Assembly: GCF_003664005.1 (NCBI RefSeq)
Contig: NZ_RCCJ01000001.1
Coordinates: forward strand, 496,001-560,000
DNA from: Hydrogenivirga caldilitoris
Lineage (GTDB): Bacteria; Aquificota; Aquificia; Aquificales; Aquificaceae
Direction: 5' to 3'
DNA: 64,000 nucleotides
Shown: positions 37,780 through 50,436 of the stretch, piece by piece
Layout: each line of letters opens with the position of its first letter
Position numbering within the stretch: the stretch's first letter is position 1
Made by a program: the position numbers and the translations under genes
The notes under the pieces: model-generated
What the model was told of the DNA's origin: nothing
The model's database searches: none
Seen by the model: the letters and a program-made list of their open reading frames with translations, nothing else

Positions 37780-38964
37780 ATGAAAAAGCTTGCAGCTTTA
37801 ATTTTGCTGTCTTTTATAGGTATTTCCCTTGCAGGGGAGCTGGACGAGCTTATAAAATTTGCTCTTGAAAATAACCCCAGAGTAAAATCCTTTGATAATA
37901 TTAAAAACTCTTTAAGTTACAGGGAAAATTTTCTTAGGAGTCTGCCAAACCCACGGTTGACTTTCGCTTTAAACAATCTTGACACAGAACATTACTTCCC
38001 CACGGAAAAGAACCCTATGAGCAGTTTCGGACTGTACCTAACCCAGAAGTATGTTCTGCCGGTGAAGAGGGAAAGAGAAGCCAAAATAGCGAGCGAGAGA
38101 CAGGTAGAGGTCTTGATTAAAAAGGAAAGATATGAGAAGGAGCTCGTTCGGAACATAAAACTCCTCTACTGGGATTTTTCTTACTCCCATGAGATGGAGA
38201 GGATAATTAGAGGTATAGAGCAAGAGATACATTCCCTTATAGAGATAACTGAGGAGAGGTACAGGTACGGAAAAGCTTTACTCTCTGATTTGCTCCTTCT
38301 TAAGGTTGAGCTCTTAAAGGTAAGGGAGAGGCTTGCCGATGCTGAAAGGTTGAGAAGGACAAGCCTTGAGAGAATCTACGCCCTTGCCGGTGGACGGTTA
38401 GAGCTTAACGGTGGAGAACTTAAGGTTCTTGACTTCCCTGAAAACTTTGACCAGGGTAAGAACGTGGAGGTGAAGCTTGCTAAAAGGGAGCTTGAGGTGA
38501 TAAAGAGGGAAATTGATAGAGCCGGGGTGGAACATTATCCGGACTTGTTTCTCTCCGCAGGTTACGCGATAAGACCCAACATACCCAACCTGATAACCTT
38601 CAGTGTTGGACTGACTTTACCTGTGTGGAAGGGAAAGAGGGAAGACATGCTGGTCTTGGAGAAGAAGGAAATTTACAACTCAAAACTTTTAGAACTTGAG
38701 GATGTAAGACTAAAGGTTTCCGGTGAGTTTGAAGCCTTAAAGGAATCTTACAGGATAACTTCCCAGATACTATCAACGGTGGAAGAAGAGATAGAGGAGA
38801 AGAAAAAGGAAATTGAGGCGCTTCTGATAGCATATGAGTATGAGAAGACAGACATAAGGGAGATTCTCAGAGCCTACAGACTTCTCTGGTCTTTAGAGTT
38901 TGACAGGGCAAAGCTTTTAAAGGAATTGAATCAAATAGTTGCTAAGGTGGAGGCGTTGCAATGA
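37780..38964 (+). CDS. cusC: TolC/CusC-like outer-membrane channel of the copper efflux system
   Basis: A 394-residue outer-membrane efflux protein with a signal peptide (to about 18, GISLA). Two helical-hairpin repeats (about 100-205 and 285-390) and strand segments (NPRLTFALNNLD, HYPDLFLSAGYAIRP) give the TolC fold. There is no lipobox, unlike E. coli CusC. Being first in an operon with a CusB-type adaptor and a run of copper-binding proteins, it should be the exit duct for the CusA pump encoded 7 kb downstream. It overlaps cusB by 4 bases. Confidence 0.88.
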   Translation: MKKLAALILLSFIGISLAGELDELIKFALENNPRVKSFDNIKNSLSYRENFLRSLPNPRLTFALNNLDTEHYFPTEKNPMSSFGLYLTQKYVLPVKREREAKIASERQVEVLIKKERYEKELVRNIKLLYWDFSYSHEMERIIRGIEQEIHSLIEITEERYRYGKALLSDLLLLKVELLKVRERLADAERLRRTSLERIYALAGGRLELNGGELKVLDFPENFDQGKNVEVKLAKRELEVIKREIDRAGVEHYPDLFLSAGYAIRPNIPNLITFSVGLTLPVWKGKREDMLVLEKKEIYNSKLLELEDVRLKVSGEFEALKESYRITSQILSTVEEEIEEKKKEIEALLIAYEYEKTDIREILRAYRLLWSLEFDRAKLLKELNQIVAKVEALQ

Positions 38965-40313
38965 GAAAGGTTTTACCTGGGTTGTTTGTAATTTTAGGTC
39001 TTCTGCTTTCAGCTTGTGGCGGGAACAGCTACAAGGAGGTTGTAACCCTTGAACAGAAAGGGGTCAAGGTGACAATTCTCTCTAGCGATGGAAAGATAAA
39101 GTCAGGGAACAACAAGATAGAGGTGAGGGTTAACCCTCCGAAACCCCTGAAAGAATTCTACTTCTACATGCCACCCATGCCGGGAATGGACGAGATGAGG
39201 GACGCTGCCTCTCTGAAAGAAATAGAGCCAGGAGTTTACAGAGGTCAGCTCAAGGTCAGCATGGACGGACCCTGGCAGATAAGGGTGGTTCTTGAGGATA
39301 CTATGCTGACCAAAGATGTATTCGTTCCACTCTCCAAGACAGCTCTCGCGGGAGGGGGACCGGCAAGCTCCGCCCACGCCGGACACATAATGGTGAAGCC
39401 TGAAAAGCTTCAGCTCTTAGGTGTTGTCACGGAACCTGTTAACAAGAGGGACCTTATAAAGACTTTCTCAGCTGTTGGCTATATAAACTATGACCTTTCA
39501 AAGATATACGACATAACGGTCAGGGCGGATGCCTGGGTAACGGATACCTATAGGAGGTTTGTGGGAGAGTATGTCAAGAAAGGAACACCCCTCATGAGGG
39601 TCCTCAGCCCCGACATACAAATTGCCCTTGATGAACTCAGACTTGCTGAGAAGAAGGGAGACCCTGAGCTGATAAAGAAAGCTAAGGAGAAACTGGAGTA
39701 TCTGAAGGTGAAGGAAGTCGTCAGGGCTCCCGCCAGCGGTGTGATACTTGAGCAAAAGGTCTATGAAGGGGGGTACATCAAGGAGGGTCAGACTGCTTAC
39801 AGAATAGCGGACATCTCTTCCGTCTGGGTAATAGCCGAAATACCTTTTAAGCAGGCGAGATACATAAAGAAAGGGACACTGGCTCTTATAACCCCCGAAG
39901 ATAACCCTGAAAACATGATAGAGGGAGAGGTGGACTACATCTTCCCAGAGGCGGACCACATGGCAAAGACCGTGAAGGTGAGGATAAAGGCTAAGAATAG
40001 GGGAATAGCTCTTAAGCCAAACGCTCTGGTGGATGTTCTCTTTGAAGTTCCCATCGGTGAGGTCCTTGCGGTTCCAGAAACGGCGGTAGTGGACACTGGA
40101 AAGAGAACCCTCGTCTTTGTGGAGATGGAACCGGGCATGTACATGCCTGTTAACGTGAAGCTCGGAAGGAAGGCGGAGGGCTTTTACGAGGTAATGCATG
40201 GTCTGAAGGAGGGACAGAAGGTTGTGGTTAAGGGAACGTTCCTCTTGGACTCGGAGGCACAGATAAGGGGAATATACGGTCAGCAGGGCGGAGGAGGACA
40301 TCACCATCACTGA
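38961..40313 (+). CDS. cusB: CusB-like metal efflux adaptor with N-terminal YtkA/FixH-like domain
   Basis: A 450-residue lipoprotein (lipobox LLSAC). Residues about 25-130 form an immunoglobulin-like YtkA/FixH-type domain with the Met-rich loop FYFYMPPMPGMDEM, likely a copper site. The rest is a CusB adaptor: barrel-sandwich (VRADAWVTDTYRRFVGEYVKKG), a short helical hairpin, and VRAPASGVILEQKVYEGGYIKEG. The C-terminus ends GGGGHHHH, a natural His cluster. It would collect periplasmic metal and join CusA to CusC. Confidence 0.9.
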   Translation: MRKVLPGLFVILGLLLSACGGNSYKEVVTLEQKGVKVTILSSDGKIKSGNNKIEVRVNPPKPLKEFYFYMPPMPGMDEMRDAASLKEIEPGVYRGQLKVSMDGPWQIRVVLEDTMLTKDVFVPLSKTALAGGGPASSAHAGHIMVKPEKLQLLGVVTEPVNKRDLIKTFSAVGYINYDLSKIYDITVRADAWVTDTYRRFVGEYVKKGTPLMRVLSPDIQIALDELRLAEKKGDPELIKKAKEKLEYLKVKEVVRAPASGVILEQKVYEGGYIKEGQTAYRIADISSVWVIAEIPFKQARYIKKGTLALITPEDNPENMIEGEVDYIFPEADHMAKTVKVRIKAKNRGIALKPNALVDVLFEVPIGEVLAVPETAVVDTGKRTLVFVEMEPGMYMPVNVKLGRKAEGFYEVMHGLKEGQKVVVKGTFLLDSEAQIRGIYGQQGGGGHHHH

Positions 40314-40326
40314 AGGAGGTGTAATT

Positions 40327-40701
40327 ATGAAAGGGATTTTGGCTCTCTTAACCTTGGCAATACTTGGATTCTCCTTCGGGAGGGAGATAACTGCTTTTTA
40401 TAACCCCAACTGCGGTTGCTGCCACAAGTACTTCAAGAGGCTTGAGGAGAAGGGTTATGTAATAAACCGCATTGAGGTCAAGCCCGACGAACTCTTCAAG
40501 AAAAAGGATGAACTCGGTGTCCCCGTTGATAAGCGTTCCTGCCACACTATGGTTATAGGAGCCAGGTTTATAGAGGGGCACGTTCCGGTGGAAGGTATAG
40601 AGGCGTTGCTTAAGGAGAAGGACGCCAAGGGTGTTTACTCTCCCCACGGAGTTCTGAGCGGCTGGGGTGCGGAGGAGCAAATTTACGAAATCATTCAATA
40701 A
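40327..40701 (+). CDS. DUF411 copper-binding periplasmic protein
   Basis: A 124-residue exported protein of the DUF411 family, frequently found in copper-resistance loci. After a signal peptide (to about 18) come the thioredoxin-like strand and NPNCGCCHKYFKRLEEKG, then a second site RSCHT near 75. The Cys and His residues are likely Cu ligands. It has an AGGAGGTGT Shine-Dalgarno and lies 13 bases after cusB. Probably a periplasmic copper carrier; the mechanism is not established. Confidence 0.82.
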   Translation: MKGILALLTLAILGFSFGREITAFYNPNCGCCHKYFKRLEEKGYVINRIEVKPDELFKKKDELGVPVDKRSCHTMVIGARFIEGHVPVEGIEALLKEKDAKGVYSPHGVLSGWGAEEQIYEIIQ

Positions 40702-40713
40702 AGGAGGTGGAGC

Positions 40714-41016
40714 ATGAAGAAGCTACTCTTAGCAACAGCAGCAGCGCTTACGCTCTCAGGAGCGGGATTCTCCCAGATGGGAGGCATGCACGATATGATG
40801 GGCGGTCAGGGAGGTATGATGCCCATGATGATGCAGGACCAGGAAATGCGTAAACTCATGATGGAACACATGCAGAAATGCAGGGAACAGATGATGAACG
40901 ACCCGAGGGTTCACGAGAGGATGCTCCACATGCTGACCATGCACCCCGAAGCCTTCAAGGAAGCCATTAAGAAGAATCCCGAACTCAAAAAGAAACTCCA
41001 GGAGCTACTCAAGTGA
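40714..41016 (+). CDS. Methionine-rich periplasmic protein
   Basis: A 100-residue exported protein with a signal peptide (to about 20, SGAGFSQ). The next 45 residues are extraordinarily rich in Met (GGMHDMMGGQGGMMPMMMQ), with interspersed His and one Cys, followed by a helical, Lys-rich tail. Met clusters of this kind bind Cu(I) or Ag(I) in oxidising compartments. It replaces the small CusF chaperone expected in this position, without being homologous to it as far as I can see. Shine-Dalgarno AAAGGAGGT. Confidence 0.78.
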   Translation: MKKLLLATAAALTLSGAGFSQMGGMHDMMGGQGGMMPMMMQDQEMRKLMMEHMQKCREQMMNDPRVHERMLHMLTMHPEAFKEAIKKNPELKKKLQELLK

Positions 41017-41570
41017 AGAGGTTTATAATAATTTTCTGCGCGCCTCTTCTCTTTTCCCTTTTTTCTTTTTCCCACGAGAGGGAGGCTGTTTACGAGGTGT
41101 CAGAACCTTCAGCTGTTCAAGAGAAAATAGTTTATCCAGAGGTGGTAAAACTGCACCCTCCTGTAGTTCACTTTGCTGTGGCTCTTCCTCTCTTCACCCT
41201 CCTCTTGGAGGGTCTTTATCATCTGAGGGGTAGAAAGCCCGACGAGGTTGAGTTCTTTGCTTTGCTTCTGTCCTCGGGAGCGGTTATAGGAGCGGCTGTG
41301 ACGGGCTATATAGCCCACGAGAGTATGGAAAACTTGCCCATAACCCCACAGGCGCTTGAGTTGCTACATACCCACCAAACCTTAGGAATAGCCTTGGCTG
41401 GTCTGTTTTCCCTCGTGTTCCTGCTCAGGCTCGTTTACACCTTTAAACCCGTTCCCATAATTCACCATCTTTACCTTCTTCTCTTACTCACCGGCGTAGC
41501 CGGTCTCTTGTATCAGGGAAACCTCGGGGGAAAGCTCGTTTACAACTTCGGACTGGGGGTGTCAGGATGA
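41013..41570 (+). CDS. DUF2231 membrane protein
   Basis: A 185-residue protein with an N-terminal signal-like helix and about four TM helices. The family signature LHPPVVHFAVALPLF and the C-terminal GGKLVYNFGLGV are both present. Several His residues lie near the membrane surface (HESMEN, LLHTHQTLG, IIHHLY) and could bind haem or copper. DUF2231 proteins accompany metal and cytochrome loci, but the function is unknown. Overlaps neighbours by 4 bases at both ends. Confidence 0.8.
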   Translation: MKRFIIIFCAPLLFSLFSFSHEREAVYEVSEPSAVQEKIVYPEVVKLHPPVVHFAVALPLFTLLLEGLYHLRGRKPDEVEFFALLLSSGAVIGAAVTGYIAHESMENLPITPQALELLHTHQTLGIALAGLFSLVFLLRLVYTFKPVPIIHHLYLLLLLTGVAGLLYQGNLGGKLVYNFGLGVSG

Positions 41571-42004
41571 AAAGAGTTGCCTTACTTTTAGGATTGCTTG
41601 CCGCTTTTGTTTTCTCCTTTGCTCAACCCAAAGACCCTCCCAAGGGAGCAAAGTGTGTGGTCTGCGGTATGGACGTGAACATGATGCCCAAGTTCACCTC
41701 ACAGTTAAAGCTCAAGGATGGGAAGTACGTATACACCGAATCTCCCAAGCACGCGATCCAGTACTACCTCAAGAACAAGGACAGGGTGGCGGAGCTATGG
41801 GTCAGGGACTTCTCAAGTGGGAAGTGGATAGACGGCAGGCATGCTTACTACGTTCCTGTTGACGAAGGTCCTATGGGACCGGATATAGTTGCCTTCAGGA
41901 GCCTGGTAGAGGCAAAGAAGTTTGCCAAAGGAAAGAAGGTCTTTAAATTCAGGGACATAGATGCAGAGTTTCTGAAGCACCTGGACATGGGACACATGCA
42001 CTGA
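41567..42004 (+). CDS. NosL-family copper chaperone
   Basis: A 145-residue periplasmic protein with the NosL signature GAKCVVCGMDVNMMPKF, where the Cys and Met residues bind Cu(I). In NosL proper this chaperone loads nitrous oxide reductase, but no nosZ is nearby. It has a cleavable signal (VFSFAQ) in place of a lipobox and a C-terminal MGHMH tail. In this context it is more likely to shuttle copper within the Cus/Cop efflux path. ATGA overlap with the DUF2231 gene. Confidence 0.85.
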   Translation: MKRVALLLGLLAAFVFSFAQPKDPPKGAKCVVCGMDVNMMPKFTSQLKLKDGKYVYTESPKHAIQYYLKNKDRVAELWVRDFSSGKWIDGRHAYYVPVDEGPMGPDIVAFRSLVEAKKFAKGKKVFKFRDIDAEFLKHLDMGHMH

Positions 42005-42017
42005 AGGAGGTTATGAG

Positions 42018-42128
42018 ATGATGGACTGGGGAATGCACGGATGGGGAGCTGGGCTTTTGTGGGTTCTTGTTGTCCTCTTCCTTATCCTCGGGATTTTAGC
42101 CTTTGCTAAGTATCTTATGAAAGGTTGA
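42018..42128 (+). CDS. 36-residue membrane microprotein at the end of the copper operon
   Basis: A short gene with an AAGGAGG Shine-Dalgarno 7 nt before the ATG and 13 bases after the NosL gene. The product begins MMDWGMHGWGAGL, followed by a single TM helix (LLWVLVVLFLILGILAFA) and a basic end. The Met/His/Trp-rich head faces one side of the membrane and could bind copper. Small one-helix proteins with this kind of head occur beside copper ATPases and SHOCT-type proteins, but I do not assign a family. The ATG at 42013 in another frame stops at once. Confidence 0.6.
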   Translation: MMDWGMHGWGAGLLWVLVVLFLILGILAFAKYLMKG

Positions 42129-42149: not shown

Positions 42150-43421
42150 TTAAAAGGCAAAGTCAAGTATCAGAGAGGTCAAGTGCGTATCTTCAGGAGC
42201 GTTTACCCCGGAAAAGTTTGTTGTCGTGTACTCCGCCCCAAGCCTGACGTTAGGTCTGATCAGATAGGAGACATGAACGGTGGTATCGGCTCTTTTTACT
42301 CCATCTTCGTTATCTGTTGTAAGAGGGTTATCGCTTTTATATTTGTAGTTACCGTAAAGCAGAGACAAGCCGAGTCTGTACTTCCAGTAAAGGGTGGCTG
42401 AGAGGTTGTAGCCGTTGTGTTTGAAATCCGGGTTTGAGGGGAACTTGTCCTTTCCGTTCACGTATATTCCGTTAAGCTCAATGCCAATGTCTCCAATATT
42501 GTAAATCACCCCAGCATCGACCCCGTATCTTCTCGGCTTTACAAGGGTCTGGTCTGTAATAGGGTCTTCATCCTTCCCAATATAGGTGAAGAGTCCTATA
42601 TTGAGGTCCGCGGGAATGCCCTGAGGAGTTACAGCTACCCTTCCGTAGAAGTCAAAGGGATCAGACTTATCCTTGTTCAGAGTGCCGTCATCCCTAACTA
42701 TCCCCGTGTAGGCTCCCACACTGGCATAGACCCAGTTAGAAACGCTCGCGTATAGGGAAGCGCCGTAGTTGTGATTGTCCCACAGGTCGCTCGCGTCTTT
42801 TTTCCTTACTCCTTCCCAGACGGTCGTTCTGAACCTCGTTATCCTTGAATACAGGTTAAGTGAATCAAAGGGATCAGTTCCCGTAGGGGAGGTCTTACCG
42901 CCCACTATACCGACGACCGTGTTATTTCCAAAGTCTTTAACTAAAGCCACCTTTACTATCTCCGGTTCAAAAGGCTCTCCCTCTTCAGATGCGAAGGCTG
43001 CAAAGGTTCCTACGTTCTCGCTTATCCTGCCTGCAAAAGCTATTACAACCTCGTCGGGGAATATGACTTCCCTGTCCTCTCCTTTCTTTTTACTGTAAGG
43101 GTAAGAAAGGACTCGTATGGAAACAGGGTTGTACTTTAGTATACTTTCTCCCTCGCCTGTCAATATATCCTCTATAGCTTTTCCATCCGTGTATCCTCTT
43201 ATCTTGAAGGTTCTTCCGTAGGCATTCAGCCTCGGCGGTATAGTGTGGCAGGTACTGCATGATAGTCCTGTTTGCCTTGCAAAGCTTGGCATAGCTTTAG
43301 CTTCAGAGGGAAGTATGACTTCCTTTGGAAGCTCCGGACACCTGCTGTTGAAGTACTCGTTCACCGCAAAGGGCAGAACCGCTCCCGTCAAGGCTGCAAG
43401 TGTAAGAATTTTCCCTTTCAT
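42150..43421 (-). CDS. cyc2: Cyc2-type fused monohaem cytochrome c / outer-membrane porin (putative Fe(II) oxidase)
   Basis: A 423-residue protein with one haem c site, CSTCH (C55-H59). It carries the complete Cyc2 signature: AMPSFARQTGLSCSTCH followed by PRLNAYGRTFKIRGYT. From about residue 75 it is a beta-barrel: alternating strands, many aromatics, and a C-terminal strand SLILDFAF ending in Phe. Length and architecture match Cyc2, the outer-membrane Fe(II) oxidase of acidophilic and neutrophilic iron oxidisers. Electrons would be passed from external Fe(II) to a periplasmic cytochrome; no such partner is in the window. The gene sits inside a copper island, divergent from copB, with an unusual promoter. 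Fe(II) oxidation is inferred from family, not shown; copper or other metal oxidation is an alternative. Confidence 0.85.
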   Translation of the reverse strand: MKGKILTLAALTGAVLPFAVNEYFNSRCPELPKEVILPSEAKAMPSFARQTGLSCSTCHTIPPRLNAYGRTFKIRGYTDGKAIEDILTGEGESILKYNPVSIRVLSYPYSKKKGEDREVIFPDEVVIAFAGRISENVGTFAAFASEEGEPFEPEIVKVALVKDFGNNTVVGIVGGKTSPTGTDPFDSLNLYSRITRFRTTVWEGVRKKDASDLWDNHNYGASLYASVSNWVYASVGAYTGIVRDDGTLNKDKSDPFDFYGRVAVTPQGIPADLNIGLFTYIGKDEDPITDQTLVKPRRYGVDAGVIYNIGDIGIELNGIYVNGKDKFPSNPDFKHNGYNLSATLYWKYRLGLSLLYGNYKYKSDNPLTTDNEDGVKRADTTVHVSYLIRPNVRLGAEYTTTNFSGVNAPEDTHLTSLILDFAF

Positions 43422-43439: not shown

Positions 43440-43453
43440 GTGATTTAAATCAC
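43440..43453. promoter_or_regulatory. Crp/Fnr-like palindrome in the cyc2 leader
   Basis: GTGATTTAAATCAC is a perfect 14-bp palindrome. With its 5' T it matches TGTGA-N6-TCACC, close to the Crp consensus and related to Fnr sites. It lies about 7 to 20 bases downstream of the predicted cyc2 start site, a position for a roadblock or repressor. In RNA it could form a 5-bp hairpin beside the Shine-Dalgarno. Confidence 0.5.
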
Positions 43454-43508: not shown

Positions 43509-43517
43509 AACTTTTAA

Positions 43518-43530
43518 CGTTAAATAAACA
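43518..43530 (+). promoter_or_regulatory. TGTTRAATTAAC element 4 (copB upstream)
   Basis: CGTTAAATAAACA, a weaker copy (2 mismatches to TGTTAAATTAACA) spaced 22 bp from element 3. It ends just before the copB -35. Confidence 0.35.
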
Positions 43531-43532
43531 TC

Positions 43533-43562
43533 TTGTATTAACACATAGAACACTTTTATTAT
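43533..43562 (+). promoter_or_regulatory. copB promoter
   Basis: TTGTAT (43533-43538), an 18-bp spacer and TATTAT (43557-43562). The leader of about 16 nt holds GGAGGT before the ATG at 43585. Tandem upstream elements suggest activation. Confidence 0.45.
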
Positions 43563-43584: not shown

Positions 43585-45750
43585 ATGGAAAACGAAATAA
43601 TCAGGGAGGTTTATACCTGCCCCCATCACCCTGAAATCAGACAGGATAAACCGGGAAAATGCCCGAAATGCGGTATGGAACTGGTAAAAATGGAGGAAAA
43701 AAAGGAGCATAAACATATGGAACATACCTGTGGTGCCCATATGAAACATGAACATACGGAACATGTACACGAAGAACACAAAGCCCACGCGGGACACGAC
43801 CACGCCATGCATATGGAAGAGATGAAGAGAAAAGCGATAGTTTCAACAGTCCTCACAATTCCCGTTGTTCTCTATTCCAGAAGCATACAGGAACTCCTCG
43901 GTTTCTCCATGCCCGAGTTTCCCGGAAGCGAGTGGATAACTCCCCTCCTTTCCACTGTGGTCTTCCTATACGGTGGTGTTTTCTTCATAAAGGGCATGCT
44001 GGACGAGCTCAGGCTCAAAAAGCCCGGTATGATGACCCTTATCGGCATCGCCATATCGGTAGCCTTTATATACAGCCTCTCAACCCTCGTATTCGGCGGT
44101 AAGGAGTTCTTCTGGGAACTCACAACCTTAATAGTGGTGATGCTCTGGGGTCACTGGATAGAGATGAAGTCGGTCTTAGGAGCTTCCCGCGCTCTGGAGG
44201 AGCTCGTCAAACTTATGCCAACTAAGGCGAACCTCATAAAGAACGGTAAAATAGTTGAGGTTCATGTTTCGGAGCTCAAGCCCGGAGACATAGTTCTCGT
44301 AAAACCGGGGGAAAAGATACCCGCCGACGGGGTGGTCATAGAGGGCTCAACCCACGTGAACGAGGCTATGCTCACGGGAGAGTCCAAGCCCGTTCCAAAG
44401 AAAGCCGGGGACAAGGTCATAGGCGGTGCCATAAACATGGAAGGCTCTGTAAAGGTGAAAGTTGAAAAGACGGGAGAGGAGACCTATTTAAGTCAGGTTC
44501 TGAAGCTCGTTAAAGAGGCTCAGGAGTCAAAAACCAGACTACAGGACATGGCAGATAGGGTCGCCTTCTACCTTACTGTGGTTGCGATAGGGATCGGAGG
44601 TCTCGCCTTTCTTGTCTGGGTATACCTTGAAGGGAACCTTCAGTTCGCCGTTGAGAGGGCAGTGACCGTGATGGTCATAGCCTGCCCCCACGCCCTCGGG
44701 CTTGCCATACCCCTCGTCGTAGCCATATCCACCTCCTACTCCGCGAGGAATGGGATACTGGTGAGGAACAGGTTGGCTTTAGAGACCATAAGGGATGTTG
44801 ATGCGGTGGTCTTTGACAAAACGGGAACTCTGACGGAGGGCAGGTTCGGGGTTTCGGATATAGTGTCAGTCGGGCTCTCTGAGACGGAGCTCCTCAGGCT
44901 GACCGCCGCCGTTGAAAAGCACTCCGAGCACGTCATAGCTCAGGCGATAGTTGAGGATGCGAAGGAAAAGGGCTTGAACCTTCCCGAGGTCAAGAACTTC
45001 AGAGCGGTGCCCGGAAAGGGTGTGGTGGGTGAGGTTGAGGGTAAACAGGTTGCGGTCGGGACGAACCTTCTGATGGAGGAGTTGAAGGTTGAATTAAGTG
45101 CGGAGGTGCTTAACAGGGTCAAAGAGCTGGAATTTCAGGGAAAGACCGTCGTCCTCGTTGCGGTGGACGGGAAGCTAACAGGAGCTATAGCCCTCGCCGA
45201 CAGGATAAGGAAGGAGTCCTACGAGGCGGTTTCAGAGCTGAAGAAGCTCGGTAAGAGGGTAGTTATGATTACAGGGGATTCGGAGGAGGTTGCCCGCTAC
45301 GTGGCGCAGGAGCTCGGGATAGACGAGTTCTTCGCAAGGGTCCTTCCCCACCAGAAGGCTGAGAAGGTGAAGGAGCTTCAGAGCAGAGGCATGAAGGTTG
45401 CGATGGTGGGAGACGGTATAAACGACGCTCCCGCCCTCGTTCAGGCGGACGTTGGGGTTGCCATAGGTTCGGGAACGGACGTTGCCATAGAGAGCGCCGA
45501 CATAATCCTCGTCAAGAACGACCCCCGGGACGTGGTGAAGGTTATGAAGCTTTCGGTGATAACTGTAAAGAAGATGGTTCAGAACCTCTTCTGGGCTGCG
45601 GGCTACAACGTCATAACCATACCCTTAGCTGCGGGAGTTGCGGCACCGTGGGGGATAATCCTGAAGCCCGCCGTGGGAGCCATTTTCATGAGCGCGAGCA
45701 CCGTGATAGTTGCTATAAACGCAATGCTCATGAGGAGACTGCTCAAGTAA
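43585..45750 (+). CDS. copB: CopB-type P1B-3 copper-translocating ATPase
   Basis: A 721-residue heavy-metal P-type ATPase. The N-terminus has a heavy-metal-binding CPHHP...CPKCGME motif (about 10-34) and then a His/Met-rich stretch (about 40-80), not a CxxC ferredoxin-like domain. The membrane metal site is CPH (VIACPHALGLAIPL, about residue 367), which defines the P1B-3 class associated with Cu(II) or Ag(I). TGES, DKTGTLT (phosphorylated Asp) and GDGINDAPAL are intact. The nucleotide-domain motif reads SEHVIA, with Val where SEHP is usual. Exports metal from cytoplasm to periplasm, where the Cus pump can take it over. Confidence 0.93.
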   Translation: MENEIIREVYTCPHHPEIRQDKPGKCPKCGMELVKMEEKKEHKHMEHTCGAHMKHEHTEHVHEEHKAHAGHDHAMHMEEMKRKAIVSTVLTIPVVLYSRSIQELLGFSMPEFPGSEWITPLLSTVVFLYGGVFFIKGMLDELRLKKPGMMTLIGIAISVAFIYSLSTLVFGGKEFFWELTTLIVVMLWGHWIEMKSVLGASRALEELVKLMPTKANLIKNGKIVEVHVSELKPGDIVLVKPGEKIPADGVVIEGSTHVNEAMLTGESKPVPKKAGDKVIGGAINMEGSVKVKVEKTGEETYLSQVLKLVKEAQESKTRLQDMADRVAFYLTVVAIGIGGLAFLVWVYLEGNLQFAVERAVTVMVIACPHALGLAIPLVVAISTSYSARNGILVRNRLALETIRDVDAVVFDKTGTLTEGRFGVSDIVSVGLSETELLRLTAAVEKHSEHVIAQAIVEDAKEKGLNLPEVKNFRAVPGKGVVGEVEGKQVAVGTNLLMEELKVELSAEVLNRVKELEFQGKTVVLVAVDGKLTGAIALADRIRKESYEAVSELKKLGKRVVMITGDSEEVARYVAQELGIDEFFARVLPHQKAEKVKELQSRGMKVAMVGDGINDAPALVQADVGVAIGSGTDVAIESADIILVKNDPRDVVKVMKLSVITVKKMVQNLFWAAGYNVITIPLAAGVAAPWGIILKPAVGAIFMSASTVIVAINAMLMRRLLK

Positions 45751-45769: not shown

Positions 45770-48700
45770 ATGGTAAAGCTGACCCAGTTCTTCATTCAGA
45801 ACAGAATAGCGATACTCTTTGCCACCTTATTTCTACTCCTTTACGGCTACTACTCCCTCAAGAAGACGCCCATAGACGCTATCCCCGACCTCTCGGACGT
45901 TCAGGTTATCATCTACTCCAAGTGGATAGGTCAGGTTCCTCAGGTCATAGAGGACCAGCTCACCTACCCCCTCGTCACCAACATGATGGGTGTCCCAAAG
46001 GTTAAAACCGTCAGGGGATACTCCGTTCCCAACTACTCCCTCGTCTTCATAATCTTTGAGGACGGAACGGACCTCTACTGGGCGAGGTCAAGGGTCCTTG
46101 AGAAGCTCGCCACCATAAGGGGACAGCTTCCGAGAGAGGCGGACATACAGCTCGGACCTGACGCGACAGGTGTGGGATGGGTATATCAGTACGCTCTAGT
46201 CTCAAAGACGAGGACCTTAGACGAACTCTGGGCTCTCCAGAACTTTTACGTTAAGTACGCTCTCTTAGCCGTTCCGGACGTTGCGGAGGTTGCCTCGGTC
46301 GGAGGATACGAGAAGGAGTACAGGGTTCTAATAAAACCCGAAAAGCTATACCAGTACGGACTCTCCCTCAAAGACCTGTACATGGCTCTCAAGAAGACGA
46401 ACGTTGAGATGGGAGGGAAGTACGTTGAGATAAACGAGAGGGAGTTCCTTGTAAGGGCTGTGGGATACGCCCAGAGCAGGGAGGACCTCGCTAAGACGGT
46501 CGTAGCTTACAGGAACGGCGTTCCCATAAGGATAGAGGACCTCGGAAAGGTTGTAGAGACCCCCGCCTACAGGATGGGAGTGGCGGACTACAACGGGATG
46601 GGGGATACGGTCGGCGGTATAGTGGTGATGCGCTTCGGAGCCGACGCCTACAAGGTCATAAAGAACGTCAAGAAGAAGATAGAGGAGATAAAGAAGGGAC
46701 TTCCTGAAGACGTAGAAATTGTCCCCGTTTACGACCGCTCAACCCTGATAGAGAGGGCTATAGACAACCTCAAGACCAAGCTCATAGAGGAGTCCATAGT
46801 CGTCTTAGCTATAGTCGGCATATTCCTCTTCCACGTCCAGAGCGCGATAGTGATAATCGTCTTCCTGATAGTTTCGCTCCTTGCCACCTTCATAACGATG
46901 AACCACCTCGGGATTACCTCCAACATCATGTCCCTCGGAGGGATAGCGATAGCGATAGGGACCATGGTGGACGCTGCGATAGTCCTCGTGGAGAACGTTC
47001 ACAGGAGGAGGGAGGAAGGGGACGACCTCATGACCGCCATAACCCACTCCGCAAAGGACGTGGGAAAGCCCATATTCCTTGCACTTCTGATAGTTACCGT
47101 CTCCTTCGTTCCCCTCTTCGCCTTGGAGGGTCAGGCGGGGAGGTTATTCAAACCCCTCGTTGCCACAAAGACCCTCTCCATGCTCGTCGCCGCAATTATA
47201 TCGGTGGTGGTAGTTCCCGTTCTCATCTACTACCTCGTCAGGGGAAGGATTCCGCCCGAGGAGAAGAACCCGATAGTTAGATTTTTGATAAGGGTTTACG
47301 ACCCCCTCTTCCATATCTCGGTAAAGCTCAGGTATCTCATGCTCCTACTCTTCGTAGTTATGGGAGCGAGCACCTTCTACTTCTACGAAAAGCTTGGAAG
47401 GGAGTTCATGCCCGCCCTGAACGAGGGAACGATACTCTACATGCCCACCACCGTTCCCAGCGTCTCCCGTCAGGAGATATTCAGGGTCATAAACCTTCAG
47501 GACAGGATAATAAAGCAGTTTCCGGAGGTTGAGAGCGTATTCGGGAAGGCAGGGAGAGCGGAGACAGCCACCGACCCCGCCCCCTTCTCAATGATAGAGA
47601 CCTTCATAACCTTGAAGCCCGAAGAGGAGTGGAGGAAGGTCAAGGAAGAGCGCTTCTACTCCAGCTGGAAAATACCTGAGTTCTTCAAGAATGTTCTGCG
47701 TAAGCTCTTCCCCGAAGAGAGGACGATAACCTACACCGAACTCATAAGGGAGATGGACCAGGCTATATCTATCCCCGGTCTTTCCAACATGTGGACGATG
47801 CCCATCAAGGGAAGGATAGACATGATAACCACGGGGATACAGACCCCCCTCGGGATAAAGATATACGGAGACGACATAAACACCCTCAACGAACTCGCGC
47901 AGCAGATAGAGCAGACGCTCAAGGACGTGGACGGGATAATGAGCATCTTCGGGGAGAGGTCAACCAAAGCTACCTACATAGAGATAAGACCAAAGAGGGA
48001 AGCCCTCCAGAGATACGGACTCACCATCTCGGACATAAACATGGCGATAGCTCAGCTCTTTGCCAACTCCCCCACCTCAACGATGATACTCGGAAGAGAG
48101 CGCTACGGGATAACCCTCGGGGTTCCCTTGGATTACCGATACGACCTTGAGAACCTGATGATACCCCTGAATAACAGGTTAATCCCCCTCTCCGCCGTTG
48201 CGGATATCGTCAGAACCGAAAGCCCCATAAGCATAAAGTCCGAGAACGGACTTCTGACGAGCTACGTCTTCATAACTCCTAACCCTGAGGTGGACATGGG
48301 AACGGTTATAGAGAGAGCCGAGAAGGTCCTTCAGGAGAAGCTCAAGCTACCCAAGGGATACTACTACGAGTGGAGCGGTCAGTTTGAGTACTGGAAGAAG
48401 GCTCTTGAGAACCTGAAGGTCATAATCCCCGTTGTAATACTACTGATAGTTCTTCTCGTGTGGTTCACCTTCAACAAGCTCTTTGAGACAATACTCGTCC
48501 TCCTTACCCTTCCGGTCGCCACCTTCGGCGGTGTGATGTTGATGTATATGCTTGACTACAACATATCCATAGCCTCTATAGCGGGATTCCTAGCCCTATT
48601 GGGTATCGCGGCGGAGATGGGGATAGTGATGGTGGTTTATATCCAGAACTCTCTCCTGCACACGGCTACGAGGTACGGAGGGAAGATACAAGACAGGAAG

Positions 48701-48952
48701 GAAGCCTTTGAGGCTATATACCGCGGAGCGGTCAAGAGGATAAGACCCATATTCATGACCTTCTCCGCCATACTCCTCGGACTCCTCCCCATAATGAGGG
48801 GGCACGGCACAGGTTCTGAGGTGATGTCAAGGATAGCGGCTCCGATGGTAGGCGGAATACTCTCCACCTTCGTGATAGTCCTCCTCTTCGTACCAGCCCT
48901 TTACGCGATATACATGGAGTGGGGCACGAGGAGAAAAGGTGAGAGTTCTTAA
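45770..48952 (+). CDS. cusA: CusA/CzcA-type heavy-metal RND efflux pump
   Basis: A 1060-residue HME-RND transporter with two 6-TM repeats and two large periplasmic loops. The N-terminus (FFIQNRIAILFATLFLLLYG, TPIDAIPDLSDVQVIIYSKW) is diagnostic for heavy-metal RND pumps, and TM4 reads IGTMVDAAIVLVENVHRR with the proton-relay Asp and Glu. The periplasmic region NMWTMPIKGRIDMITTGIQTPLGIKIYG is rich in Met, suiting Cu(I)/Ag(I). The adaptor and channel genes are 5-8 kb upstream, separated by cyc2. It starts 19 bases after copB and ends one base from the convergent tRNA gene. Confidence 0.93.
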   Translation: MVKLTQFFIQNRIAILFATLFLLLYGYYSLKKTPIDAIPDLSDVQVIIYSKWIGQVPQVIEDQLTYPLVTNMMGVPKVKTVRGYSVPNYSLVFIIFEDGTDLYWARSRVLEKLATIRGQLPREADIQLGPDATGVGWVYQYALVSKTRTLDELWALQNFYVKYALLAVPDVAEVASVGGYEKEYRVLIKPEKLYQYGLSLKDLYMALKKTNVEMGGKYVEINEREFLVRAVGYAQSREDLAKTVVAYRNGVPIRIEDLGKVVETPAYRMGVADYNGMGDTVGGIVVMRFGADAYKVIKNVKKKIEEIKKGLPEDVEIVPVYDRSTLIERAIDNLKTKLIEESIVVLAIVGIFLFHVQSAIVIIVFLIVSLLATFITMNHLGITSNIMSLGGIAIAIGTMVDAAIVLVENVHRRREEGDDLMTAITHSAKDVGKPIFLALLIVTVSFVPLFALEGQAGRLFKPLVATKTLSMLVAAIISVVVVPVLIYYLVRGRIPPEEKNPIVRFLIRVYDPLFHISVKLRYLMLLLFVVMGASTFYFYEKLGREFMPALNEGTILYMPTTVPSVSRQEIFRVINLQDRIIKQFPEVESVFGKAGRAETATDPAPFSMIETFITLKPEEEWRKVKEERFYSSWKIPEFFKNVLRKLFPEERTITYTELIREMDQAISIPGLSNMWTMPIKGRIDMITTGIQTPLGIKIYGDDINTLNELAQQIEQTLKDVDGIMSIFGERSTKATYIEIRPKREALQRYGLTISDINMAIAQLFANSPTSTMILGRERYGITLGVPLDYRYDLENLMIPLNNRLIPLSAVADIVRTESPISIKSENGLLTSYVFITPNPEVDMGTVIERAEKVLQEKLKLPKGYYYEWSGQFEYWKKALENLKVIIPVVILLIVLLVWFTFNKLFETILVLLTLPVATFGGVMLMYMLDYNISIASIAGFLALLGIAAEMGIVMVVYIQNSLLHTATRYGGKIQDRKEAFEAIYRGAVKRIRPIFMTFSAILLGLLPIMRGHGTGSEVMSRIAAPMVGGILSTFVIVLLFVPALYAIYMEWGTRRKGESS

Positions 48953-49447: not shown

Positions 49448-50436
49448 ATGTCCAGAGCCAGGGAAGAAACTAAATTCTTACTGACCTACAGGTTCAGAGC
49501 CTATCCTTCAGCACTGTTAGAATACAAGATGGAAAACTGGTTTCATATTCTTTGCACACTCTATAACCATGCCCTTGAGGAAAGAAAGAGAGCCTGGAAG
49601 AAGGAAAAGAAAAGCATTACCTACACATATCAGCAGAATGCCCTTCCCAGGCTCAAAGAAAAAGACCCTTCCCTGAACCTTGTCCACTCTCAGGTCCTTC
49701 AGGATTGTCTGAGAAGAGTGGATAACGCATTCCAGAAGTTCTTCAGGAAGGAAGCCAAGTATCCAAAGAAAAAGAAACTTTCCGGATACCGTTCCTTCAC
49801 CTTCCCACAGGTATGGATGAAGCAGAAGGGAAAACTCGTAGAGGTTGTAAAGCTGGAAAGACAAAATAGCAGGTTTGCATATCTGTATCTTCCTAAGCTC
49901 GGAAAACTCAAGATTAGACTTCACAGGGAGATAGACTGGGAAAAGGCAAGAACTGTAACCGTAAAGAGAGAACCCTCTGGAAAGTGGTATGTGTGTATAA
50001 CGGTTGAAGTAGAGCTTGGGCAGATACTGAGGGAAGCAGAGGAGAAAGCTGTAGGGATAGACCTCGGAGTAAAGAACCTTGCTACCACTTCAGAGGGAGA
50101 GTTTATAGAGCATCCCAGATTTTTGCAGAGACTTGAGAAGAGACTCAAGAGGGAACAAAAGAAACTCTCAAGGAAGGAGAAAGGTTTAAACAGCTGGGAG
50201 AAGCAAAGGAGGAAGGTGGCAAAGGTTCACGAAGAGTTCCCAAGACTTTGGCTGAGAGACTCCATGAGTGTCCCGAGTGTGGAGCGGTAATGGATAGGGA
50301 TTACAATGCGAGGGTGAACATACTGAGAAAAGGTCTCGCCCGTCTCAAGGGTGGTAGGGTCGGAGCGACCCGAACTTACGCCTGTGGAGAGGGCACTGGC
50401 GGGACACCTTCAGAAGGAGGTTCACGGTTTACATAG
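49448..50436 (+). pseudogene. TnpB (IS605/IS1341-type OrfB) remnant with internal deletion and frame change
   Basis: Residues 1 to about 265 read as TnpB: the N-terminal RNA-binding part and the RuvC-I site AVGIDLGVKNLATTSEGEF, then KLSRKEKG and RRKVAKVHEE. At about 50235-50250 the frame is lost. The reading resumes one frame over as KTLAERLHECPECGAVMDRDYNARVNI, holding the second zinc knuckle and RuvC-III Asp. Compared with the family, roughly 75 residues are missing, including the RuvC-II Glu and the first CxxC, so the nuclease should be inactive. No TnpA is nearby. The 3' end (TRTYACGEGTGG) is typical and overlaps the thermonuclease gene by 15 bp without disrupting it. Confidence 0.85.

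Follow-up and report, generated by a model that had tools for sequence, protein, structure and literature searches.

Genes and features of the locus

The stretch of DNA analysed here (64,000 nucleotides from Hydrogenivirga caldilitoris, hereafter 'the window') carries a copper-resistance island in which all of the neighbouring genes lie on the + strand, and in which a single gene, cyc2, breaks the run on the - strand. The genes and features are as follows.

37780-38964, + strand: outer-membrane efflux protein OEP, CusC-like (PF02321)
38961-40313, + strand: CusB-like periplasmic adaptor (PF16576, PF13115)
40327-40701, + strand: DUF411 protein (PF04214)
40714-41016, + strand: small Met-rich secreted protein (sequence; homologues in sister islands)
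41013-41570, + strand: DUF2231 membrane protein (PF09990)
41567-42004, + strand: NosL-family protein (PF05573)
42018-42128, + strand: 36-residue membrane microprotein MMDWGMHGWG... (MMDWGMHGWGAGLLWVLVVLFLILGILAFAKYLMKG), with homologues in the islands of genomes G020, G018, G009 and G028, and near cyc2 in G062
42150-43421, - strand: cyc2, a Cyc2-type fused monohaem cytochrome-porin of 423 residues (open reading frame, motif, 17-protein alignment, fold search to OprP/OprO)
42156-43121, - strand: predicted 16-strand outer-membrane barrel, residues 101-422, then the C-terminal Phe (AlphaFold2 model; Foldseek)
43227-43235, - strand: PRL, the PXL motif after CXXCH (sequence, alignment; PMC8406198)
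43245-43259, - strand: CSTCH haem c attachment site (sequence, alignment)
43269-43295, - strand: AMPSFARQT, the Cyc2 signature AXPXFAR[Q/K][T/Y] (sequence, alignment; signature from PMC8406198)
43293-43364, - strand: residues 20-43, clade-specific insert with invariant Cys28 (NEYFNSRCPELPKE...; alignment)
43365-43421, - strand: residues 1-19, putative basic and hydrophobic segment of a signal peptide (sequence; helix in the model)
43441-43452, no strand assigned: Crp/Fnr-like palindrome TGATTTAAATCA, 31 bp before the cyc2 start codon (kept in all 7 island copies whose upstream DNA is readable)
43512-43543, + strand: conserved block TTTTAACGTTAAATAAACATCTTGTATTAACA upstream of copB, a candidate copB operator or promoter (kept in 6/7 aligned intergenic regions)
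43585-45750, + strand: CopB-like P1B ATPase with a heavy-metal binding domain, divergent from cyc2 (PF19335, TIGR01511)
45770-48952, + strand: CusA-like RND pump (TIGR00914)

An earlier, sequence-only reading had placed cyc2 within this island, and the gene does lie between the OEP/CusB side and CopB/CusA; however, it shares neither the strand nor the promoter of the copper operon, being encoded on the opposite strand behind its own conserved upstream palindrome, and so stands outside the cus/cop operon at this locus. The 36-residue microprotein is kept after NosL in several Aquificaceae copper islands, and a truncated IS605 OrfB/TnpB-type gene (49448-50290, + strand) lies just 3' of the island, as a possible trace of mobility.

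A Cyc2-family protein and its predicted fold

The cyc2 open reading frame is real, and the haem pattern and terminal Phe originally ascribed to it are exact: its 423-residue product contains Cys28, AMPSFARQTGLSCSTCH and PRLNAYGRTFKIRGYT, and ends in Phe. The published Cyc2 signature comprises AXPXFAR[Q/K][T/Y] a little ahead of CXXCH, and a PXL located four residues beyond it (PMC8406198). Each of these parts is present in the window protein, in the form AMPSFARQT-GLS-CSTCH-TIP-PRL, and its length and single CXXCH place it within the Cyc2 size range (at least 365 residues, with one haem site). In an alignment of 17 Aquificota Cyc2-like proteins, extending down to 24% identity, residues P45, F47, R49, Q50, C55, C58, H59, P63, L65, G69 and K73 are invariant; a chance origin of the haem motif is ruled out by this conservation. 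Searches with the window protein found no Pfam or NCBIfam family above cut-off and no matching chain among PDB sequences, which is expected because the barrel of the Cyc2 family is poorly conserved.

AlphaFold2 modelling with 17 homologues (model m0e26a2d01be6) predicts, with low confidence (pLDDT 59, pTM 0.62), that 16 strands follow residue 100, and a second run without the signal region was no more confident (pLDDT 56). The N-terminal haem domain falls mostly below pLDDT 50 in both models, and the haem region is unreliable in both. The top PDB chain in a Foldseek search was OprP (2o4v, E 9.7e-11), with OprO (4rjw) ranking third; these are the two templates named for the Cyc2 of Mariprofundus (PMC8406198). 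The 16-strand barrel, for which modelling had been proposed as a check, is therefore recovered in an OprP/OprO-like form, from a low-confidence model. Membership of the Cyc2 family, at first proposed from the haem pattern, is now supported by the motif, the barrel of approximately 16 strands and the OprP/OprO-like fold, and the window protein is a genuine member of that family, in a copper-linked variant.

A copper-linked clade in the Aquificota

Among 136 Aquificota genomes searched, Cyc2-like matches were found in 25, and the corresponding proteins form several families: a copper clade, a sister clade in genus g10, and the more distant families B, C, D and E. The copper clade comprises 11 genomes (including G000, the window's own), and in 10 of them cyc2 is kept within copper-resistance gene clusters, adjoined by copper genes in three different arrangements. 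Seven genomes of genus g1 (G000, G010, G011, G015, G018, G020 and G021) display the first, with cyc2 divergent from copB; G016, in which a C-terminal cyc2 fragment is found after DUF2231 at the end of a contig, is counted with it. The second arrangement is that of G062 (genus g11), where cyc2 lies downstream of a COX2-COX1-SCO1 set and ahead of the microprotein gene, a gene for hemerythrin and a further CopB-like gene. The third, in a genome of another family (G068), consists of genes on one strand for the Met-rich protein and, after 14 bp, Cyc2, followed by a glycosyltransferase, CopB and the start of a CopA-type multicopper oxidase, a set that is likely to represent one operon. Only in G068 is cyc2 co-directional with the copper genes, and there its reading frame is broken by one base close to the start, possibly through an assembly error. 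The sole member of the clade with cyc2 located away from copper genes is G017. Two MAG copies of cyc2 bear a stop or a frameshift.

The island also occurs without cyc2, in G017, G009, G023 and G028 and, in a reduced form, in G060; the simplest reading is therefore that cyc2 was inserted (or repeatedly lost). In the island of G015, cyc2, CopB, CusA, CusB and OEP are kept, and genes for DUF411, DUF2231 and NosL were not found.

The long N-terminus with an extra cysteine, to which attention had been drawn on the basis of the window alone, proves to be real and corresponds to an insert at residues 20-43 (NEYFNSxCPELPKE) that is present in 8/8 readable copper-clade proteins, the G017 copy included, and was not found in the g10 sister clade or in the other aligned Aquificota Cyc2-like families. 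Cys28 is invariant in the readable proteins of the clade, and the one further His, Met or Cys whose conservation is specific to the clade is His335. No Met- or His-rich copper site was found in the window protein, which has one Met (M44) besides Met1 and few His. The suggestion that this might be a Cyc2 homologue adapted to copper or another metal, offered initially as one of two alternatives, gains support from the 10/11 copper linkage and from the Cys-bearing insert peculiar to the clade.

Allele exchange at one locus

The CopB tree unites G000, G015, G010 and G020 (support 93/97 for the group of five rows and 100/99 for the group of seven rows that contain them). The cyc2 genes, in contrast, fall into two types, one that joins G000 and G015 with G017, and another that joins G020 and G010 with the G062/G011/G018 type. 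When G000, G015 and G020 are constrained to one group in the cyc2 tree, 160 log-likelihood units are lost (AU p 3e-70, an optimistic value because the group was picked after the identities had been seen), yet the effect is so large that, as judged from these trees, there can be little doubt of an exchange of two divergent cyc2 alleles at this single locus. Nucleotide identity between G000 and G020 falls within cyc2 and recovers in copB.

Upstream palindrome and possible regulation

Wherever the DNA upstream of an island cyc2 could be read (7/7 copies), a palindrome of the form TGAYN4RTCA starts about 30 bp ahead of the start codon, against a background of intergenic sequence much of which has diverged. 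The 64 kb window contains a single TGATN4ATCA, and the genome has TGATTTNNATCA at two sites. No such box precedes the cyc2 of G017; in that genome the motif appears at two other positions, one before a gene for a PF00034 cytochrome c and one before the gene of a CXXCH lipoprotein. Crp/Fnr proteins are encoded in the window's genome, for example near G000:C1:946816 (L073), and one of the set has an FNR-like VETxxR recognition helix. Taken together, the palindrome and these proteins suggest respiratory or redox control of cyc2. A Crp/Fnr-like palindrome is also found between tatA-like and kamA-like genes (G000:C1:682496), and in G009 (L063) such a palindrome precedes a kamA-like gene.

Comparison with other Cyc2 and copper systems

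By comparison with its published description, the Cyc2 protein of Mariprofundus ferrooxydans PV-1 (Cluster 1, PMC8406198) resembles the window protein in its signature (AXPXFAR[Q/K][T/Y]-CXXCH-PXL), its one haem, its barrel of about 16 strands and its OprP/OprO-like fold. The window protein differs in carrying 24 additional residues, Cys28 among them, as an insert ahead of the motif, and its gene differs in sitting among copper genes with no adjacent gene for a partner cytochrome.

Seven plasmid Cyc2-like loci were inspected, from Caballeronia, Paraburkholderia, Methylocystis, Ideonella, Polymorphobacter, Acidithiobacillus and Acidiphilium. Their products share the haem motif and length of the window protein and (for the better matches) tblastn homology, but even the best is about 23% identical across 86% of the length, and they are well separated from it in a tree whose rows were the Aquificota and six proteobacterial plasmid sequences. 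A c-type cytochrome gene lies beside or close by in 7/7 of these loci (with the addition of HiPIP in Caballeronia), whereas no periplasmic cytochrome gene adjoins cyc2 in the copper-clade neighbourhoods that were inspected. Elsewhere in the window's genome there are nine PF13442 cytochrome matches (E < 0.001), and an electron acceptor in trans could therefore exist. The g10 sister clade (Aquificaceae, L038-L041) shows 36-38% identity over most of its length and an identical CSTCHTIPPRLN core, and differs in having no insert, no Cys28 and no His335, and in its solo position away from copper genes.

The multicopper oxidases CopA/PcoA and CueO would occupy the same functional slot (periplasmic oxidation of Cu(I), within a copper operon), but have an unrelated fold and rely upon copper centres rather than haem, and several carriers of cyc2 have both. 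No PF07732 protein was found when G000 was searched for a multicopper oxidase; one is present along with island cyc2 in G010, G011, G015, G018 and G020, five genomes that rule out Cyc2 as a general stand-in for a missing multicopper oxidase.

Which metal, and in which direction

The explanation tentatively favoured here, with rather less than even confidence, is that Cyc2 proteins of the copper set oxidize a metal, which in this clade would most likely be Cu(I), yielding Cu(II). In the outer membrane, a short N-terminal domain with a single haem c would be joined to a porin barrel that has about 16 strands; a small reduced metal ion would enter the barrel and most likely be relieved of its electrons one at a time, and these would pass to soluble periplasmic c-type cytochromes and then to an oxidase. 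As part of the copper-resistance set, the clade protein would most likely receive Cu(I) that CusCBA/CopB and the Met-rich protein bring to the periplasm or outer surface, and turn it into Cu(II), the less toxic form. In favour of copper are the family signature and fold, the 10/11 linkage, the clade-specific Cys28 and His335, a g10 sister clade that has neither the insert nor copper neighbours, and the contrast with the plasmid loci in adjoining cytochrome genes. Against it, the window protein differs from typical Cu(I) handlers in its scarcity of Met and His, and this speaks against a Cu(I) site of the classic kind; cyc2 is read from the opposite strand with its own Crp/Fnr-like box; there are islands without cyc2, and the G017 copy lies away from its island; carriers with a multicopper oxidase imply that cyc2 is no simple replacement; and those Cyc2 proteins for which the literature consulted describes biochemical tests oxidize Fe(II) (PMC8406198). 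A bolder version, in which the clade has shifted from iron respiration to copper detoxification as a haem-based outer-membrane Cu(I) oxidase, sending the electrons of Cu(I) to the respiratory chain and contacting copper through Cys28 close to the haem, appears doubtful.

That the protein is instead an ordinary Cyc2, which oxidizes Fe(II) at the outer membrane for energy and passes the electrons via periplasmic cytochromes to an oxidase, is a possibility with a substantial claim of its own; its copper neighbours would then reflect the need for copper resistance where copper-iron sulfides dissolve. The signature is common to the tested Fe(II) oxidases, the motif copies of G017 before the cytochrome c and CXXCH lipoprotein genes suggest a respiratory regulon, cyc2 lies downstream of the COX2-COX1-SCO1 set in G062, and the PF13442 matches would offer cytochromes; on the other hand, no cyc1, HiPIP, rusticyanin or other partner cytochrome gene adjoins cyc2, unlike in the plasmid loci, and a literature search yielded no record of iron oxidation by these organisms. 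Oxidation linked to Cu(I) is placed slightly ahead of Fe(II) oxidation because the copper linkage has outlived three arrangements. It is improbable that the protein is primarily a fast-diversifying surface porin, with a secondary haem domain, that rides in the island while its exposed barrel is swapped between alleles under phage or environmental selection: G020 and G010 do share CopB with G000 and G015 and yet differ in cyc2 allele (by the AU test described above), two MAG copies are broken and some islands dispense with the gene, but in either allele, and over great distances, conservation is highest in the haem motif and Cys insert, and allele exchange is compatible with a redox role. Less probable still is an outward flow of electrons, by which the protein would reduce external Fe(III) or Cu(II) at low oxygen under a Crp/Fnr regulator. 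The palindrome before cyc2 and the encoded protein with an FNR-like helix would suit such a role, but reduction of Cu(II) would increase copper toxicity beside an efflux island, and the known Cyc2 proteins are oxidases (PMC8406198).

The authors of the Cyc2 study considered additional functions possible, and left open whether the family takes other metals (PMC8406198); the copper-linked clade would provide a direct test case for that question. The literature search found nothing tying Cyc2 to copper resistance, and what is new here is the 11-genome copper-linked clade, the Cys28 insert, the Crp/Fnr-like palindrome and the exchange of alleles at one locus. The gene cyc2 is in use as a marker of iron oxidation in environmental genomics, and that marker can mislead if a Cyc2 clade is indeed kept beside copper-resistance genes in thermophilic Aquificota.

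Other Cyc2-like families in the Aquificota

Genes for cyc2 assigned to Aquificae are mentioned in one vent-chimney metagenome (PMC11333457). Genus g4 carries a different Cyc2-like family (IPSFARQTGLACDVCHTVFPHLTPFGREFKLHGY), found at L046 (9372-10829), L048 (8074-9552) and L026; at L046 and L048 a small cytochrome c gene (PF00034 in L046) lies within about 600 bp, as in canonical cyc2 loci. Three more Cyc2-like haem-porin families are present in the Aquificota (L042, L043, L044, L047, L049, L050, L052 and L053), with the cores CHKCHSHHNHP, CNACHTPHGFP/CNTCHSPHSFP and CNTCHAAFPRL.
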